The position numbers and the translations under genes are program-made. Positions 28,718-34,767 of a stretch of DNA of 64,000 nucleotides are shown piece by piece. The stretch is from Desulfovibrionaceae bacterium (lineage in GTDB: Bacteria > Desulfobacterota > Desulfovibrionia > Desulfovibrionales > Desulfovibrionaceae), in contig JACCQI010000003.1 of assembly GCA_015709315.1 (NCBI GenBank), positions 114,271 through 178,270 on the forward strand, in the 5' to 3' direction. Numbering within the stretch: the stretch's first letter is position 1; the number at the start of each line of letters is the position of its first letter. The notes under the pieces are model-generated. The model saw nothing but the letters and a program-made list of their open reading frames with translations. It had not been told where the DNA came from and did no database searches.

Positions 28718-31216
28718 ATGGCCAAAAAGAAAACCACATACGAAGTCCCCGTTGAAAAGCTCAAGTGGACGCTCAGTCCAGGCCAACTGTCGTTCAAGAC
28801 GACCGACGACATCGAGCCGCAGTCCGAGATCATCGGCCAGCAGCGTGGCGTCGAGGCGTTTCGTTTCGGCGTGGGGATGCTCAAGCAGGGGTACAACATA
28901 TTCGTCACGGGCGAGCCCGGCCTGGGCCGCCTGGCCACGGTGAAGCGGCTGCTCGAAGAGATGACGGACAAGAAGGAGCCGCCGTGCGACCTCTGTTACG
29001 TCAACAATTTCAAGACCCCGGAAGCGCCGATCATGCTCCGCTTCAAGCCCGGGCAGGGCGGGCGGTTCAAGAAGGACATGCAGAACTGCCTGGACGTCAT
29101 AAAGCGGGAGGTCCCCCAGCTCTTCGAGAGCGAGGAGTACATCAACCGCAAGAACCAGATCGCCGAGGCCCACGAGAAAAAGGTCATGAGTTTCTACAAG
29201 GCCATCGAGGACCAGGTGAAGGACACCGGCCTGGTGGTGGTTCGCATGCAGATGGGCCCCATCCAGCGGCCGGACGTGGTCCCGCTGGTGGACGGCGAGC
29301 CCAAGCGCATGATCGAGCTGGAGGAGCTGGTCGAGAACAGTCGCTTCCCCCGCGAAGAGTTTGAGCGGCTCCGAGATAAGCGTTTGGAATTAAAAGAAGA
29401 AATTGACCAGATTGTGCAGGATCTGAAGTCCCTCCAAAAGGAGGTCGGCGAAAAGAACGACGAGGTTGATCGCCTCATGTTCATGGCCATGGCCCAGGAT
29501 ATCCTGAAGCCGCTCCGAGAGACCTATGACGACGACAAGGTGTTGCAGTACCTGGACTCCATGCTGGAAAACATGGTCGAGGACCTGGAACCCATCAAGA
29601 CCCTGGGCGCAGGCGCCAAGCAGGGACCCATCCCCGGCCTGATGATGCCCGGCCCGTCGCCGGAAATGGTGTTCCACCCGTACAAGGTCAACCTGCTGGT
29701 GGACAATTCCGAGACCGAGGGGTCGCCGGTGATCGTGGAGTCCTATCCCACCTACCGCAACCTGTTCGGCTCCATCGAGCGCGTCATGGACCGCAACGGC
29801 GGCTGGCACACGGACTATACCAAGATCAAGGCCGGTTCCTTCGTCAAGGCCAACGGCGGGTATCTGGTCATCAACCTCATGGACGCCATCATGGAGCCGG
29901 GGGTGTGGCAGACCCTGAAACGGGCGCTCAAGACCGAGCAGATCGAGATCGAGACCTTTGATCCGTACTACTTCATCAGCGCCACCGGCCTGAAGCCGGA
30001 ACCCGTGGATATGGAAGTGAAGGTGGTGGTGCTCGGCAGCGCGTACCTCTATTCGCTGCTCAAGCACTACGACGAGGACGTGCCCAAGATATTCAAGGTC
30101 CGGGCGGACTACGCGTCGAGCATGGACGTCACCGGCGAGTCCGTGCAGCAGGTGGCCCGCTTCATCCGCAAGGAAGTGGACAAGGACGGCCTGAGGCCCT
30201 TTGCCGCCGAAGGCGTGGCCTCGGTCATGGAGGAGGCGGTGCGCTGGTCGGGCCGCCAGGAGAAGATATCCACGGCCTTTCCGGCCATGGCCGACCTGTT
30301 GAGCGAGGCCAACTACTTTGCCGGGCTGGCCGGGGCGGACGTGGTCACGGACCGGCATGTCAAGGAGGCCATCGACGCCAAGGTGTACCGCTCCAACCAG
30401 GTGGAGGAGCGCATCCAGGAGATGATCGACCGGGGCAGCCTGTTCGTGGACACGGACGGCGAGGTCGTGGGCCAGGTCAACGGGCTGGCCGTGTATTCGC
30501 TGGGCGACTACATGTTCGGCAAGCCCGCCCGCATTACGGCGGTCACGGCGCTTGGCAAGGAGGGCATCATCAACATCGAGCGCGAGGCGGACATGTCCGG
30601 GCCGACCCACAACAAGGGCATGCTTATCCTGTCCGGGTATCTCCGCAACCGGTTCGCCCAGGACAAGCCCCTGTCCCTGGCCGCTTCCATCGCCTTCGAG
30701 CAGTCCTACGGCGGCATCGACGGCGATTCCGCATCCTCCACCGAACTGTATGCGCTGTTGTCGAGCCTGTCCGGCAAGCCCATCCGGCAATACGTGGCCG
30801 TTACCGGCTCGGTGAACCAGTACGGCGAGGTCCAGCCCATCGGCGGGGTGAACCAGAAGATCGAAGGCTTTTACCTGTGCTGCAAGAACGCGGGCCTGAC
30901 CGGCAGGCAGGGCGTGATGATTCCGTATCCCAACGTCAAGGACCTGATGTTGCGCGACGAGGTGATCGAGGCCGTCAAGGCGGGCACGTTCCACATCTGG
31001 GCCGTCAGGACCATTGACGAAGGCATCGAGATCTTGACCGGCGTGAAGGCGGGCGTGCGCGGCAAGACCGGGTATCCCAAGAATACCGTCAACCGGTTGG
31101 TGGACGACAAGCTCCGGGAGCTGGCCGACCAGCTTATCGCCTACGGCAAGGATGACAACGGGAAGAAGACGAGCCGCAGGAAGACGGCGGCCAAAAAGAA
31201 GCCCGCCAAGAAATAG
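28718..31216 (+). CDS. Lon-like (LonB/YcbZ-type, COG1067-like) protease
   Basis: 832 residues. The N-terminal AAA-like region has an altered P-loop, GEPGLGRLAT, lacking the usual Lys. A large coiled-coil insert follows (about 220-270). The C-terminal Lon peptidase has the Ser-Lys dyad in GDSASSTELYALLSSLSG (Ser) and GGVNQKIEGFYLCCK (Lys). The lysine-rich tail (KKTSRRKTAAKKKPAKK) is unusual. By family it should be a cytosolic Ser-Lys protease, with ATP use uncertain. Follows hsp20 by 15 nt; terminator at 31251-31283. Confidence 0.88.
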   Translation: MAKKKTTYEVPVEKLKWTLSPGQLSFKTTDDIEPQSEIIGQQRGVEAFRFGVGMLKQGYNIFVTGEPGLGRLATVKRLLEEMTDKKEPPCDLCYVNNFKTPEAPIMLRFKPGQGGRFKKDMQNCLDVIKREVPQLFESEEYINRKNQIAEAHEKKVMSFYKAIEDQVKDTGLVVVRMQMGPIQRPDVVPLVDGEPKRMIELEELVENSRFPREEFERLRDKRLELKEEIDQIVQDLKSLQKEVGEKNDEVDRLMFMAMAQDILKPLRETYDDDKVLQYLDSMLENMVEDLEPIKTLGAGAKQGPIPGLMMPGPSPEMVFHPYKVNLLVDNSETEGSPVIVESYPTYRNLFGSIERVMDRNGGWHTDYTKIKAGSFVKANGGYLVINLMDAIMEPGVWQTLKRALKTEQIEIETFDPYYFISATGLKPEPVDMEVKVVVLGSAYLYSLLKHYDEDVPKIFKVRADYASSMDVTGESVQQVARFIRKEVDKDGLRPFAAEGVASVMEEAVRWSGRQEKISTAFPAMADLLSEANYFAGLAGADVVTDRHVKEAIDAKVYRSNQVEERIQEMIDRGSLFVDTDGEVVGQVNGLAVYSLGDYMFGKPARITAVTALGKEGIINIEREADMSGPTHNKGMLILSGYLRNRFAQDKPLSLAASIAFEQSYGGIDGDSASSTELYALLSSLSGKPIRQYVAVTGSVNQYGEVQPIGGVNQKIEGFYLCCKNAGLTGRQGVMIPYPNVKDLMLRDEVIEAVKAGTFHIWAVRTIDEGIEILTGVKAGVRGKTGYPKNTVNRLVDDKLRELADQLIAYGKDDNGKKTSRRKTAAKKKPAKK

Positions 31217-31250
31217 GATTCGTTCCTGAAAACTGTTGAGCCATGAAAAC

Positions 31251-31283
31251 AAAAGGGTTACGGTATCTCCGTAACCCTTTTTT
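31251..31283 (+). terminator. Terminator of the hsp20-protease operon
   Basis: AAAAGGGTTACGG (31251-31263), loop TATCT, CCGTAACCC and TTTTTT. Confidence 0.93.
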
Positions 31284-31296
31284 GCGGGAGAAATGC

Positions 31297-31464
31297 ATGA
31301 ATCTGTTGCGGCTGAACATATGGCGGAAGTTCATTATCGCGGGCTTTTTGGTGGCGGTGACGGCCATGTTCGCCATTGACTGGGGCTATCATTTCCATGT
31401 CGGCCACGTGGTCCGCCTGTTTGTCGGGGCCGTCGCCTTCTGGCTGGCCGTGGACCGTCTGTAG
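31297..31464 (+). CDS. Small hydrophobic protein, unknown function
   Basis: 55 residues from ATG 31297, preceded by GGGAG. Two hydrophobic stretches (KFIIAGFLVAVTAMFAIDWG and VVRLFVGAVAFWLAV) are joined by a His-rich loop, YHFHVGHV. A longer open frame begins at 31243, but that start lies in the terminator stem, so it is rejected. It may be read by leakage through the terminator or from an unseen promoter. Family not recognised. Confidence 0.5.
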   Translation: MNLLRLNIWRKFIIAGFLVAVTAMFAIDWGYHFHVGHVVRLFVGAVAFWLAVDRL

Positions 31465-31565
31465 CCGGGCGTACGCGGTTGAAACCTGATTTGTCCGGGT
31501 GGTCGGTACATCTTCCTATCCGGCGGGTAAGAAAGACAAGTAATGCCTTTTTATCGGGAAAACCC

Positions 31566-31594
31566 TTGACCTTTTTTTGCGACCCGACTAGTTG
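31566..31594 (+). promoter_or_regulatory. Possible ilv operon promoter
   Basis: TTGACC (31566-31571), 17 bp, TAGTTG (31589-31594). The -35 is good and the -10 weak; it sits about 30 bp before the leader peptide. No other feature was found in 31465-31565. Confidence 0.35.
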
Positions 31595-31622
31595 AATTCC
31601 TAACGAACGAAAGGATTTTCCC

Positions 31623-31733
31623 ATGTTGCGCGTTGAAAACACCATTTCCATCCTTCCCGCCGGCCTAGTCGTGGCCGACGTATGCGTCGTAGTAGACGTA
31701 GTAGTAGGTGGTGTCTTGTGGGACGCGCCATAG
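31623..31733 (+). CDS. ilvB leader peptide (attenuation)
   Basis: A 36-residue open frame too short for ordinary gene finding. ATG 31623 has GAAAGGA 8 nt upstream and the stop is TAG 31731-31733. It encodes MLRVENTISILP, then AGLVVADVCVVVDVVVGG and VLWDAP: 11 Val, 4 Leu and 2 Ile out of 36 residues. Six of the valines (codons 20, 23, 24, 26, 27, 28) are GTA, which by eye is scarce in the neighbouring GC-rich genes. The peptide itself is presumably discarded. Ribosome stalling on it would report scarcity of charged tRNA-Val and so control ilvB-ilvN. A terminator follows at 31761-31792. Confidence 0.87.
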   Translation: MLRVENTISILPAGLVVADVCVVVDVVVGGVLWDAP

Positions 31734-31792
31734 CGGGATAGATTCAAGCGAATGTGACAACCCCCGTCGGTGCGTACCGGCGGGGGTTTTTT
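31720..31792 (+). terminator. ilv attenuator: terminator and competing antiterminator
   Basis: Terminator: CCCCCGTCGGT (31761-31771), loop GCGT, ACCGGCGGGGG (31776-31786), TTTTTT. Hand pairing shows GGGACGCGCC (31720-31729) can pair with GGTGCGTACC (31769-31778) at 9 of 10 positions, including one G-U. This would block the top of the terminator stem. The 31720-31729 arm lies over leader codons 33-36. Confidence 0.82.
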
Positions 31793-31841
31793 CATTCAAT
31801 TCCCGCCAGACGTGAACACGGGGCCGAACAGGAGGCCCGAA

Positions 31842-33515
31842 ATGAAAATGACTGGTGCGGAAATCATCATCAACTTGTTGGAACGGCAAGGAATCGAGAC
31901 CATTGCCGGGATTCCCGGCGGCGCGAACCTGCCGCTCTATGACGCCCTTGGCCGGTCCGGCATCCGGCATATTCTGACCCGGCACGAGCAGGGGGCCGGG
32001 TTCATCGCCCAGGGCATAGCCCGCGTCTCGGGACGGCCCGCGGTCTTTTTCGCCACGTCCGGGCCGGGCGCGACCAATACACTGACGGCCATTGCCGACG
32101 CCAAGCTCGACTCCATCCCCATCATCTGCATCACCGGCCAGGTGCCGCTTTCCATGATCGGCACCGATGCCTTTCAGGAGGTGGACACCTACGGCCTGAG
32201 CGTGCCCATCACCAAGTACAATTTCCTGGTCCGGTCCGCCGAGGACCTGCTGGACATCATCCCCGCCGCGTTTCGCATCGCGGCCTCCGGCCGTCCCGGT
32301 CCCGTGGTCATCGACGTGCCCAAGGACGTCCAGACGGCCGAGGTGGAATTCGACGAGTGGCCCGAACTCGGCGTGCGCGAACCCGGCACCGAGCTGATTC
32401 CCAATCAGGTGAAGCGGGCCGCGGCCATGATCAACCGGGCCGAAAAGCCCATCCTGTACCTGGGCGGCGGCGTGATCCAGTCCGGTTCCGCCGATTTTGC
32501 CAGGGAGCTGGCCGAGAAGGGCGGCATCCCGGCGGCCATGACGCTCATGGGGCTGGGCATCATGCCCTCCGGCCACCCGCTCAACATCGGCATGCTGGGC
32601 ATGCACGCGGCTCGGTACACGAACATGGCCCTGGAGGAATGCGACCTGCTGGTGGCCGTCGGCGTCCGCTTCGACGACCGGGCCACAGGCAAGGTCCCGG
32701 AGTTCTGCCCCAAGGCCAAGATCGTGCATATGGACATTGATCCGAGCGAGCTGGACAAGATCAAGACGGCCAACGCGTCCGTGACCGGCGACGTGGCCGA
32801 TTCCCTGCGCGCGCTGCTGCCTCTGGTCGAGGAGAAGGCCCGCACGGAATGGAAAGCCGGTATCCAGGCGCTCCGGGAGGCCCATCCCATGATCGTCCCC
32901 GAGGCCGACGACCCGGCCTCGCCCTACGGCGTCATCCTCAAGGCCGCGGAACTGGCGGGCAGGGATGCCGTTGTCTGCACCGACGTGGGCCAGCACCAGA
33001 TGCGGACCGCCCAGGTGTATCCGTTCAGCGCGCCGCGTTCCTGGCTGACTTCCGGCGGGCTGGGCACCATGGGTTTCGGCATGCCCGCCGCCCTGGGCGC
33101 TTCCCTGGCCGCGCCGGACCGTCCGGTTCTCTGCTTTACGGGCGACGGGTCGATCATGATGAACATCCAGGACCTGGCCACGGCCATGGAGTACGACATC
33201 CCGATCAAGATCATCCTGACCAACAACAACGCGCTCGGTCTGGTCCGCCAGCAGCAGGATCTTTTCTACGGCAAGCGCTACACCGCGTCCGAGTACTCCA
33301 GAAGCGTGGATTTCTTAAAGATAGCCGAGGGTTTCGGCATCAAGACCCATGATCTGGGAACGAGCGACGATCCGGCCCGTACCCTGGCCGAGGCCCTGGC
33401 CGAACCCGGCCCGTCCCTGATCCACGTGCCCGTGGGCGTGGAGGAGGCCGTGTATCCCATGGTTCCCCCCGGAGCCGCCAATTCCGAAATGATCGGAGGT
33501 GAGAAACATGTGTAA
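31842..33515 (+). CDS. ilvB: Acetolactate synthase large (catalytic) subunit
   Basis: 557 residues from ATG 31842 (AGGAGG 6 nt upstream). ThDP enzyme condensing two pyruvates, or pyruvate with 2-oxobutyrate, in valine, leucine and isoleucine synthesis. The ThDP glutamate is in LTRHEQGAGF; the FAD/central domain includes LDSIPIICITGQVP and DAFQEVDTYG. The C-terminal ThDP-Mg motif is GDGSIMMNIQDLATAMEYDI, followed by LTNNNALGLVRQQQ. Expression is likely controlled by the attenuator immediately upstream. It overlaps ilvN by 8 nt. Confidence 0.96.
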   Translation: MKMTGAEIIINLLERQGIETIAGIPGGANLPLYDALGRSGIRHILTRHEQGAGFIAQGIARVSGRPAVFFATSGPGATNTLTAIADAKLDSIPIICITGQVPLSMIGTDAFQEVDTYGLSVPITKYNFLVRSAEDLLDIIPAAFRIAASGRPGPVVIDVPKDVQTAEVEFDEWPELGVREPGTELIPNQVKRAAAMINRAEKPILYLGGGVIQSGSADFARELAEKGGIPAAMTLMGLGIMPSGHPLNIGMLGMHAARYTNMALEECDLLVAVGVRFDDRATGKVPEFCPKAKIVHMDIDPSELDKIKTANASVTGDVADSLRALLPLVEEKARTEWKAGIQALREAHPMIVPEADDPASPYGVILKAAELAGRDAVVCTDVGQHQMRTAQVYPFSAPRSWLTSGGLGTMGFGMPAALGASLAAPDRPVLCFTGDGSIMMNIQDLATAMEYDIPIKIILTNNNALGLVRQQQDLFYGKRYTASEYSRSVDFLKIAEGFGIKTHDLGTSDDPARTLAEALAEPGPSLIHVPVGVEEAVYPMVPPGAANSEMIGGEKHV

Positions 33516-33786
33516 GCATACCGTCATCGAATTGTCCGTGAGGAACCATCCCGGCGTCATGTCCCATATCTGCGGCCTGTTCGCACGCCGGGCGTACAAT
33601 GTGGAGGGCATCGCCTGCATGCCGGTCAATGGCGGCGGCACGAGCAAGATCTGGCTTCTGGTCGATGCGGACCGACGGCTCGACCAGATGATAAAGCAGG
33701 TGGACAAGCTTCAGGACGTGCTCGACGTGGAGCGCTACGACGGCGGCCACGAGGTGTTCACCAAGATGTCCGAGTTCGTTCAGTAG
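33508..33786 (+). CDS. ilvN: Acetolactate synthase small (regulatory) subunit
   Basis: 92 residues consisting of essentially one ACT domain (HTVIELSVRNHPGVMSHICG, LFARRAYNVEGIACMP, DQMIKQVDKLQDVLDV), so it is the short IlvN type rather than the about 160-residue IlvH type. It binds valine and confers feedback inhibition on IlvB. ATG 33508 has GGAGGT 7 nt upstream; an in-frame GTG three codons earlier lies inside that site. Overlap with ilvB implies coupled translation. Confidence 0.92.
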   Translation: MCKHTVIELSVRNHPGVMSHICGLFARRAYNVEGIACMPVNGGGTSKIWLLVDADRRLDQMIKQVDKLQDVLDVERYDGGHEVFTKMSEFVQ

Positions 33787-33856: not shown

Positions 33857-33883
33857 TAAAGATAGTGCGTTGGCCGTCGATAA
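33857..33883 (+). promoter_or_regulatory. Sigma-28 (FliA) promoter of the flagellin-like gene
   Basis: TAAAGATA (33857-33864), 11 bp, GTCGATAA (33876-33883). This is one mismatch from the GCCGATAA -10 consensus and has exact spacing. A near-identical copy lies upstream of flaG. Confidence 0.8.
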
Positions 33884-33921
33884 CGCTTTTGGACAATTTT
33901 ATGCATTGTCCGGGAGACGCC

Positions 33922-34767
33922 ATGGCATTGACGGATATCGAAAAAACATTGATTTTTAATTATTCCCAGCAGTTGCTTGATCAGGACATGTTGACCAACC
34001 ATCTGTTCGGGGCATCTGCATTGGGGCGCGACCTGCGTAGCCTCATGCTGGGCGGGCCCGTTCATGCCACCATCTTCACCAATCCGTTCGAGAACGCCAT
34101 GAGCGGCACCCTGCGGGCGGATTCCCAGGCGGTGCGCCAGGCGTCGCGCAACGTGGGCGAGGCCGCCGCCATGATGGGCGTGGCCCGAACGGAGATGGCG
34201 ACTATCGTCGACGCCCTGGACGACATGGAGGACATGATCGACCGGATCAATTCCGGCGAGCTGGACGGAACCAGCTCGGTGGTCCAGTCCGATTTCGACG
34301 CCTTGCGCGACAAGATCACCGGGGCCGTGTCCGGTGCGGACTACAACGGCATCGCGGTGCTGGATTCCTCCCAGTGGGACACCAACCAGATCGACGCGAA
34401 CGGCAACGTGCATATCCAGTCCAGCGCCAGCGGCGGCTTCAACATCACCTTCCACTCCGTGGACGACCCGGCGAGCGGCGTGAACTGGTCCGATCTGGAC
34501 GGCACGGACCTCGGCGTGGAAGGCACGCGGGCCACGCAACTCGCGTATGTGCAGAGCCTCAAAAGCGAGATGGAGTCCATCCTGGACATGTACGGGTCCA
34601 AGGAGAACAGTCTCCAGTCACAGGAAATTCAGTTGCAGAGCCAGGCCCAGATACTGGACAAGGCCGCCCAGGTGCGTATGCCGTCCACCCCGGAGTATTC
34701 CCTGGAAAAGCTGCTGGCCGACCTTGTGGCCGACCAACTTGGCTCCATAGTGAACAGTTCCGGGTAG
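33922..34767 (+). CDS. Orphan flagellin-like protein with a non-standard N-terminus
   Basis: 281 residues from ATG 33922 (GGGAG 6 nt upstream). Residues about 65-150 resemble the flagellin D1 coiled coil and its closing motif: SQAVRQASRNVGEAAAMMGV, ALDDMEDMIDRINSG, QSDFDALRDKITGA, then ADYNGIAVLDSS, comparable to the flagellin 'FNGxxLL' region. The N-terminal 60 residues do not look like the canonical flagellin D0 start, and the C-terminus (QLQSQAQILDKAAQV...LLADLVADQL) is only loosely helical. It may be a minor filament, cap or secretion-related protein. It is transcribed alone from a sigma-28 promoter and ends at a perfect palindromic terminator. Confidence 0.7.
   Translation: MALTDIEKTLIFNYSQQLLDQDMLTNHLFGASALGRDLRSLMLGGPVHATIFTNPFENAMSGTLRADSQAVRQASRNVGEAAAMMGVARTEMATIVDALDDMEDMIDRINSGELDGTSSVVQSDFDALRDKITGAVSGADYNGIAVLDSSQWDTNQIDANGNVHIQSSASGGFNITFHSVDDPASGVNWSDLDGTDLGVEGTRATQLAYVQSLKSEMESILDMYGSKENSLQSQEIQLQSQAQILDKAAQVRMPSTPEYSLEKLLADLVADQLGSIVNSSG

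Follow-up and report, generated by a model that had tools for sequence, protein, structure and literature searches.

The ivbL leader of Escherichia coli responds to valine and leucine, as has been shown with a reporter (PMC11187965). Upstream open reading frames (uORFs) rich in codons for branched-chain amino acids (BCAA) have also been described in Corynebacterium and Leptospira, and the ilvB-OMG motif in various phyla (PMC10272879). According to PMC2965389, leader peptides had been known only in Proteobacteria and Actinobacteria before the Firmicutes case that it presents itself. A word search of PMC545781, which deals with metal-reducing delta-proteobacteria, gave no mention of ilvB, leader peptide or T-box, and a word search of PMC4833913 for six words found none of them. 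Some of the leaders described below, their spread or their codon bias may already be reported by Vitreschak 2004 and Lopatovskaya 2010, and we claim no priority.

Here we analyze a locus in the window, the whole 64-kb stretch of DNA that was examined. We consider it very probable that positions 31566-31842 constitute a ribosome-mediated transcription attenuator of the E. coli ivbL kind, which would raise the transcription of ilvBN when charged Val-tRNA, chiefly the isoacceptor that reads GTA, is scarce. All features of the locus given below lie on the plus strand.

The leader and the genes that it precedes

The leader peptide ORF (31623-31733) is conserved and comprises 36 codons, from an ATG start to a TAG stop at 31731-31733, preceded by an SD-like AAGGA at 31611-31615. 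Its sequence contains, as the initial annotation had it, a ribosome-binding site and 11 Val codons (codons 4, 16, 17, 20, 22-24, 26-28 and 31), six of which are GTA, together with four Leu and two Ile codons. The regulatory run, codons 20-28 (31680-31706), reads Val Cys Val Val Val Asp Val Val Val and holds the six GTA codons. On both strands of the 64-kb window there is a single ORF that begins with ATG, has no more than 60 codons and contains 8 or more Val within 13 residues; 40 dinucleotide-preserving shuffles gave none.

Behind the leader lies an intrinsic terminator hairpin (segments 3 and 4, 31759-31788) of 13 pairs with a loop of 4, followed by six T (31787-31792). This is the terminator that had been annotated, except that the spacing from the stop codon to the first base of the stem is 25 nt and not 28 nt. 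Folding of 31600-31800, which had been suggested as a check, gave a better result than any of 200 shuffles (z -4.35). TTGAC recurs 45-75 nt 5' of the leader start (at 84 of 128 loci, versus 3% in shuffles), which makes a promoter in front of the leader likely. In the window, the likely leader promoter (31566-31594) consists of a -35 box TTGACC (31566-31571) and a weak -10 box TAGTTG (31589-31594), the latter assigned by eye. Transcription starting 5' of the leader, on which the initial reading of the locus depends, is thus likely, though a sigma-70 scan of 31200-32000 lists no site.

The first gene downstream, ilvB (31842-33515; SD AGGAGG at 31830-31835), encodes the large subunit of an acetolactate synthase of the AHAS-I type (NCBIfam NF006016, 931 bits with a cut-off of 870), which matches the N, M and C TPP_enzyme families of Pfam. 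It is followed by ilvN (33499-33786), whose start overlaps the end of ilvB and whose product, the small subunit of 95 aa, matches NF006036 (148 bits, cut-off 128) and ACT_AHAS_ss. We take NF006016 and NF006036 to be the AHAS-I subunits, and this naming agrees with our tree, in which the annotated E. coli ilvB falls in the same clade as the window ilvB. The nearest named records are from Pseudodesulfovibrio (75-81% identity). The genome of the window has a second ilvB, 45% identical, which is without a Val-rich leader by the rule used.

As regards the surroundings of the locus, a small hydrophobic ORF of 73 aa (31243-31464) separates the leader from a LonB-like protease gene (28718-31216); a Pfam search with this ORF was without match, and ORFs resembling it are also present upstream of ilvB in L108 and L110. 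A gene with a Flagellin_N domain (33865-34767) lies directly 3' of ilvN.

At the gathering score, Rfam detected two tRNAs only, and no T-box, in the whole window, and no family in the window leader or in the 27 other ilvB leaders given to it, save for T-boxes in L043 and L049. A permissive Rfam search of 31560-31860 produced six weak sub-threshold matches, none of them to an ilvB family, the best being His_leader with 23.6 bits versus 49.

The leader accompanies the AHAS-I type of ilvB

Of the 36 genomes in the genus set, 35 have an ilvB of the AHAS-I type; the one in which it was not found, G023, is an 82% complete bin. A leader was called Val-rich when the 600 nt upstream of ilvB contained an ORF in which 5 or more of 12 residues are Val. 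Such leaders were found at 130 of the 141 AHAS-I-type loci examined, eight pairs of which are identical DNA under two ids. The initial annotation had pointed to close relatives as the place where the leader should recur, and the Val-rich ORF is indeed kept at 83 of the 91 ilvB loci that make up the genus and family sets, the window among them. The 11 remaining loci among the 141 have shorter or other runs, for instance three successive Val codons or, in L026, an Ile-Val-Met-Thr run. In L026, which comes from a Desulfobacteraceae bin, the leader abounds in Ile, Met, Val and Thr codons, and the amino acid that it senses may differ from that of the other leaders. A terminator follows the ORF at 139 of the 141 loci, none being found by rule in L141 and L145. 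At the loci of the other ilvB type, a Val-rich ORF was detected in 2 of 44; these two ORFs have 71 and 106 codons, and there is no terminator behind them.

Two mutually exclusive helices

Comparison of the relatives shows, besides the Val-rich leader ORF, a terminator and a competing antiterminator helix that covary, and the two helices predicted in this way cannot coexist. Segment 2, the 5' strand of the antiterminator (31725-31737), straddles the UAG stop codon (31731-31733) and forms 11 pairs; segment 3 (31763-31773) is common to antiterminator and terminator, both of which are conserved. In the conserved antiterminator, 31725-31730 and 31733-31737 pair with 31763-31773, which captures the whole 5' arm of the terminator. 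The initial annotation had assigned the antiterminator to 31720-31729 and 31769-31778. The complementarity of 9/10 between these stretches exists, and their pairing includes the upper half of the conserved helix, while the remainder is a local extension: the extra upper pairs are present in the window and its nearest relatives, and the loop bases vary. That pairing alone was dropped as the antiterminator in favor of the longer conserved helix.

Thinning left 103 elements, of which 84 were aligned and 19 were set aside because the ORF stop does not lie on segment 2, so that the alignment leans towards the structure. In the 84 sequences, 89.0% of the antiterminator cells are paired, versus at most 55.1% in slid controls, and 95.7% of the terminator cells are paired. 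Two-sided changes affect 9 of the 11 antiterminator pairs, in 35 cells (5.5 and 15.7 in shuffles; 7 and 28 in the best slid control), and 8 of the 10 terminator pairs, in 38 cells (4.0 and 7.5 in shuffles; 5 and 16 in the best slid control); since the aligned sequences are related, the shuffle values are not probabilities, and the slid controls, which retain the relatedness, are far lower on cells paired and closer on antiterminator two-sided cells (28 versus 35). Compensatory changes are visible in L144, L115 and L142, among other cases. The pair 31730-31768 is a mismatch in the window and in 36 of 83 sequences. Compared with shuffled segment 2, the difference in helix energy was modest (p<=0.05 at 48 of 77 loci). 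Compared with shuffled upstream DNA, the duplex energy of a wider set was likewise modest, with p<=0.02 at 32 of 135 loci (window 0.04, E. coli 0.277); for loci with tandem units, described below, the unit taken for this computation was the first in L136-L138 and the second in L139.

Apart from the Val run, the leader peptides differ considerably from one another, whereas the RNA surrounding the stop is conserved. Because the antiterminator helix straddles the leader stop, the leaders recurrently end in Ala-Pro, Ala-Ser or Ala-Leu. In L015, L016, L021 and L110 the leader stop is lost, yet the RNA motif stays and the ORF continues through segment 2, which argues for a constraint on the RNA. Further upstream, the minimum free energy fold contains a possible protector, segment 1 (31613-31648), which in the absence of a ribosome is able to pair with segment 2 and to mask the leader start. 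This pairing is weakly conserved (p<=0.05 versus shuffles at 23 of 75 loci; window p 0.06).

A predicted kinetic switch

The arrangement suggests the following mechanism. RNA polymerase would start near 31600. A ribosome slowed at codons 20-28 would leave segment 2 free to pair with segment 3 as the latter emerges, so that no terminator would form and ilvBN would be read. A ribosome that reaches the stop codon would instead cover segment 2, segment 3 would pair with segment 4, and transcription would stop near 31790, leaving an RNA of roughly 190 nt. When no ribosome is present, segment 1 might, as its weak conservation faintly suggests, hold segment 2 and favor termination.

These states were modeled with an RNA that ends before the 3' arm of the terminator and with the ribosome assumed to cover 15 nt to either side of the P site. 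With the ribosome at codons 20-28, the downstream RNA of the window is predicted to pair 31720-31737 with 31763-31778, with a small hairpin between them. In the stalled state, at least 6 expected pairs between segment 3 and upstream RNA were predicted at 139 of 140 loci, versus 9 of 140 once the ribosome has reached the stop. The window belongs to those 9, with 6.7 expected pairs, and the fold concerned has -4.6 kcal/mol versus -24.8 for the terminator hairpin. If the RNA behind the stalled ribosome is also allowed to fold, segment 1 becomes a competitor for segment 2 when the ribosome is at codons 24-31. At equilibrium the complete terminator wins in every ribosome state, and the switch must therefore be kinetic, as in the classical model.

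Taken together, the locus has a short, SD-preceded leader ORF rich in codons for the product of the operon, an intrinsic terminator between the leader and the first gene, and an exclusive antiterminator that would be freed by a stalled ribosome and covered by one at the stop; the last of these is indicated by covariation, and the fold model is a prediction. The classical attenuation logic that had been proposed from the window alone is thereby supported, the comparison showing conservation of the leader, its Val run, the terminator and the competing antiterminator, and covariation of both helices.

Codon choice and tRNA

That GTA is scarce nearby had been judged by eye, and counting bears this out: 38 long window ORFs, picked by length and non-overlap alone, contain 1450 Val codons, of which 99 (6.8%) are GTA, whereas GTA makes up 6 of the 11 Val codons of the leader (Fisher p 4e-5). 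At 99 loci, GTA makes up 45% of the Val codons of the leader versus 4% of those of ilvB, the share being higher in the leader at 89 of them. When the loci were thinned to 35 ilvB clusters, the shares were 34% and 5.6%, with the leader higher in 26, lower in 5 and level in 4 (p 4e-5). Likewise, CTA represents 19% of the Leu codons in leaders versus 1% in ilvB, and the Ala, Arg and Ser codons show no comparable shift between leaders and ilvB. GTA is absent from the leaders of E. coli, Serratia and Anaerophaga. The excess of GTA in these sequences is as expected if one Val-tRNA isoacceptor were the sensor, though the E. coli leader has none. The theory of selective charging would allow rare-codon readers, yet it also explains leaders that use common codons (PMC1183508).

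In the complete genome of a relative (G014), Rfam and ARAGORN together identified tRNA-Val genes with TAC and GAC anticodons (24 of 30 loci scanned, of 49 tRNA matches). In the draft G000, ARAGORN over all 42 tRNA matches found Val GAC and CAC and no TAC; an assembly gap is likely here, because the Asp tRNA, which adjoins Val-TAC in G014, is also absent from G000. A pattern search for tRNA-Val(UAC) had given three matches that were judged not to be clear Val genes, and it was replaced by Rfam and ARAGORN.

Spread of the element

An RNA model, R1, was built from 51 Desulfovibrionaceae elements, with E. coli not included. R1 recovers the annotated E. coli ivbL with an E value of 2.9e-10, and from this match the attenuator appears to be homologous to ivbL. 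Outside the Desulfovibrionaceae, 36 of 39 AHAS-I loci, E. coli included, match at E<=0.01; those missed are L018, in which leader and terminator are present, and L043 and L049, which have T-boxes. None of the 44 control loci of the other ilvB type passes (best E 1.9), and in the genome of the window the only significant place is the leader under study. Weak minus-strand matches on the same hairpin occur at some AHAS-I loci. Judged by record titles, the matches come from Thermodesulfobacteriota, Pseudomonadota, Verrucomicrobiota, Hydrogenedentota, Elusimicrobiota, Armatimonadota, Spirochaetota (E 3e-4) and Bacteroidota (E 0.0096). Many of these loci are metagenome bins, the exceptions including E. 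coli, Serratia marcescens, Uliginosibacterium, Pelagicoccus, strain DG1235 and Anaerophaga. In the phylum sample, searched at E<=1e-4 and with stricter filters, 13 of 297 genomes carry the element, which is therefore patchy and not general in the phylum; 12 of the places precede ilvB.

In a quick IlvB tree, all AHAS-I rows fall in one clade of 60 (SH-aLRT 100), within which the phyla are mixed (17 changes versus a minimum of 12). This mixing would fit transfer, without proving it.

Several loci depart from the usual arrangement. In L202, the thirteenth place of the phylum sample, the element precedes an ilvD-type dehydratase gene in place of ilvB. In two Clostridia, T-boxes replace the attenuator before the AHAS-I ilvB (L043:2173-2427 and L049:291-545). 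Six loci (L136, L137, L138, L139, L037 and L210) have two Val-rich leaders in series before ilvB, each with its own terminator, that is, tandem attenuators; in L037 both units are matched by R1.

Alternative explanations

It could be argued that the hairpin is a plain, unregulated terminator, or the source of a small RNA, and that the leader ORF is a bystander. The modeling gives this some room, in that the terminator, once complete, is the most stable structure in all modeled states. However, conservation extends jointly to the Val-rich ORF, to its spacing from the terminator and to the competing helix, and the arrangement of Val-rich ORF and terminator is absent from the other ilvB type, so we consider such a plain terminator very unlikely. 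We give even less credence to the view that the leader acts mainly in another way, by means of a peptide that functions in trans or through leader translation feeding the translation of ilvB or the access of Rho. A trans-acting attenuator peptide, peTrpL, has been reported in Sinorhizobium (PMC7298713), but in the leaders studied here it is the RNA around the stop that is kept, while the peptides diverge outside the Val run.

Another question is whether the likeness to ivbL reflects common descent. Short GC-rich elements can look alike, and the phyla are mixed on a tree in which some branches are weak, as might be seen if a Val leader and a GC-rich terminator had evolved separately in several lineages. 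On the other hand, a model made from one family only detects the element in E. coli and in eight named phyla, in front of the same ilvB clade and with the straddling of the stop kept, and we therefore regard convergence as improbable. The data incline us, if only slightly, to the view that the ivbL attenuator is no peculiarity of enterobacteria but an old or mobile regulatory RNA cassette inherited with the AHAS-I ilvB over at least eight phyla, with the A-ending codons GTA and CTA as sensor almost wherever these codons are rare, a swap for a T-box in Clostridia and tandem doubling in some lineages.

Comparison with known systems

The type of switch is itself already known, and the points of interest are its spread over several phyla and the bias towards rare codons. 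Among sulfate reducers, Verrucomicrobiota, Hydrogenedentota and others, the pairs of the textbook E. coli switch can be recognized one by one, and in all matches obtained here the element precedes genes for branched-chain amino acids. The leader class, which was not matched by any Rfam family here, now has a sequence model in R1. The choice of regulatory codons, which theory ties to selective tRNA charging (PMC1183508), can now be compared over genomes of differing codon use.

T-boxes are an alternative way of sensing tRNA charging, and, unlike the two Clostridia, the window has none. The window leader and E. coli ivbL both precede an AHAS-I ilvBN, the window proteins passing the cut-offs of NF006016 and NF006036; in E. 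coli, too, the Val run lies near the end of the leader, which has 32 codons and ends in Ala-Pro-UAG, segment 2 lies on the stop codon, and the terminator has the form CCCCGCCGGCGC...GGGG. The two differ in that Val is encoded by GTG and GTC in E. coli and by GTA in the window leader. Moreover, E. coli ivbL matches the Pfam family IlvB_leader (PF08049) at 2.2e-21, whereas the window leader has no match at E<=0.001. The general plan is also that of the ilvB-II motif of Corynebacterium, the ilvB-OMG motif and the Leptospira ilvB motif, which, as described in PMC10272879, likewise combine a BCAA-rich uORF with a terminator and an antiterminator upstream of ilvB.
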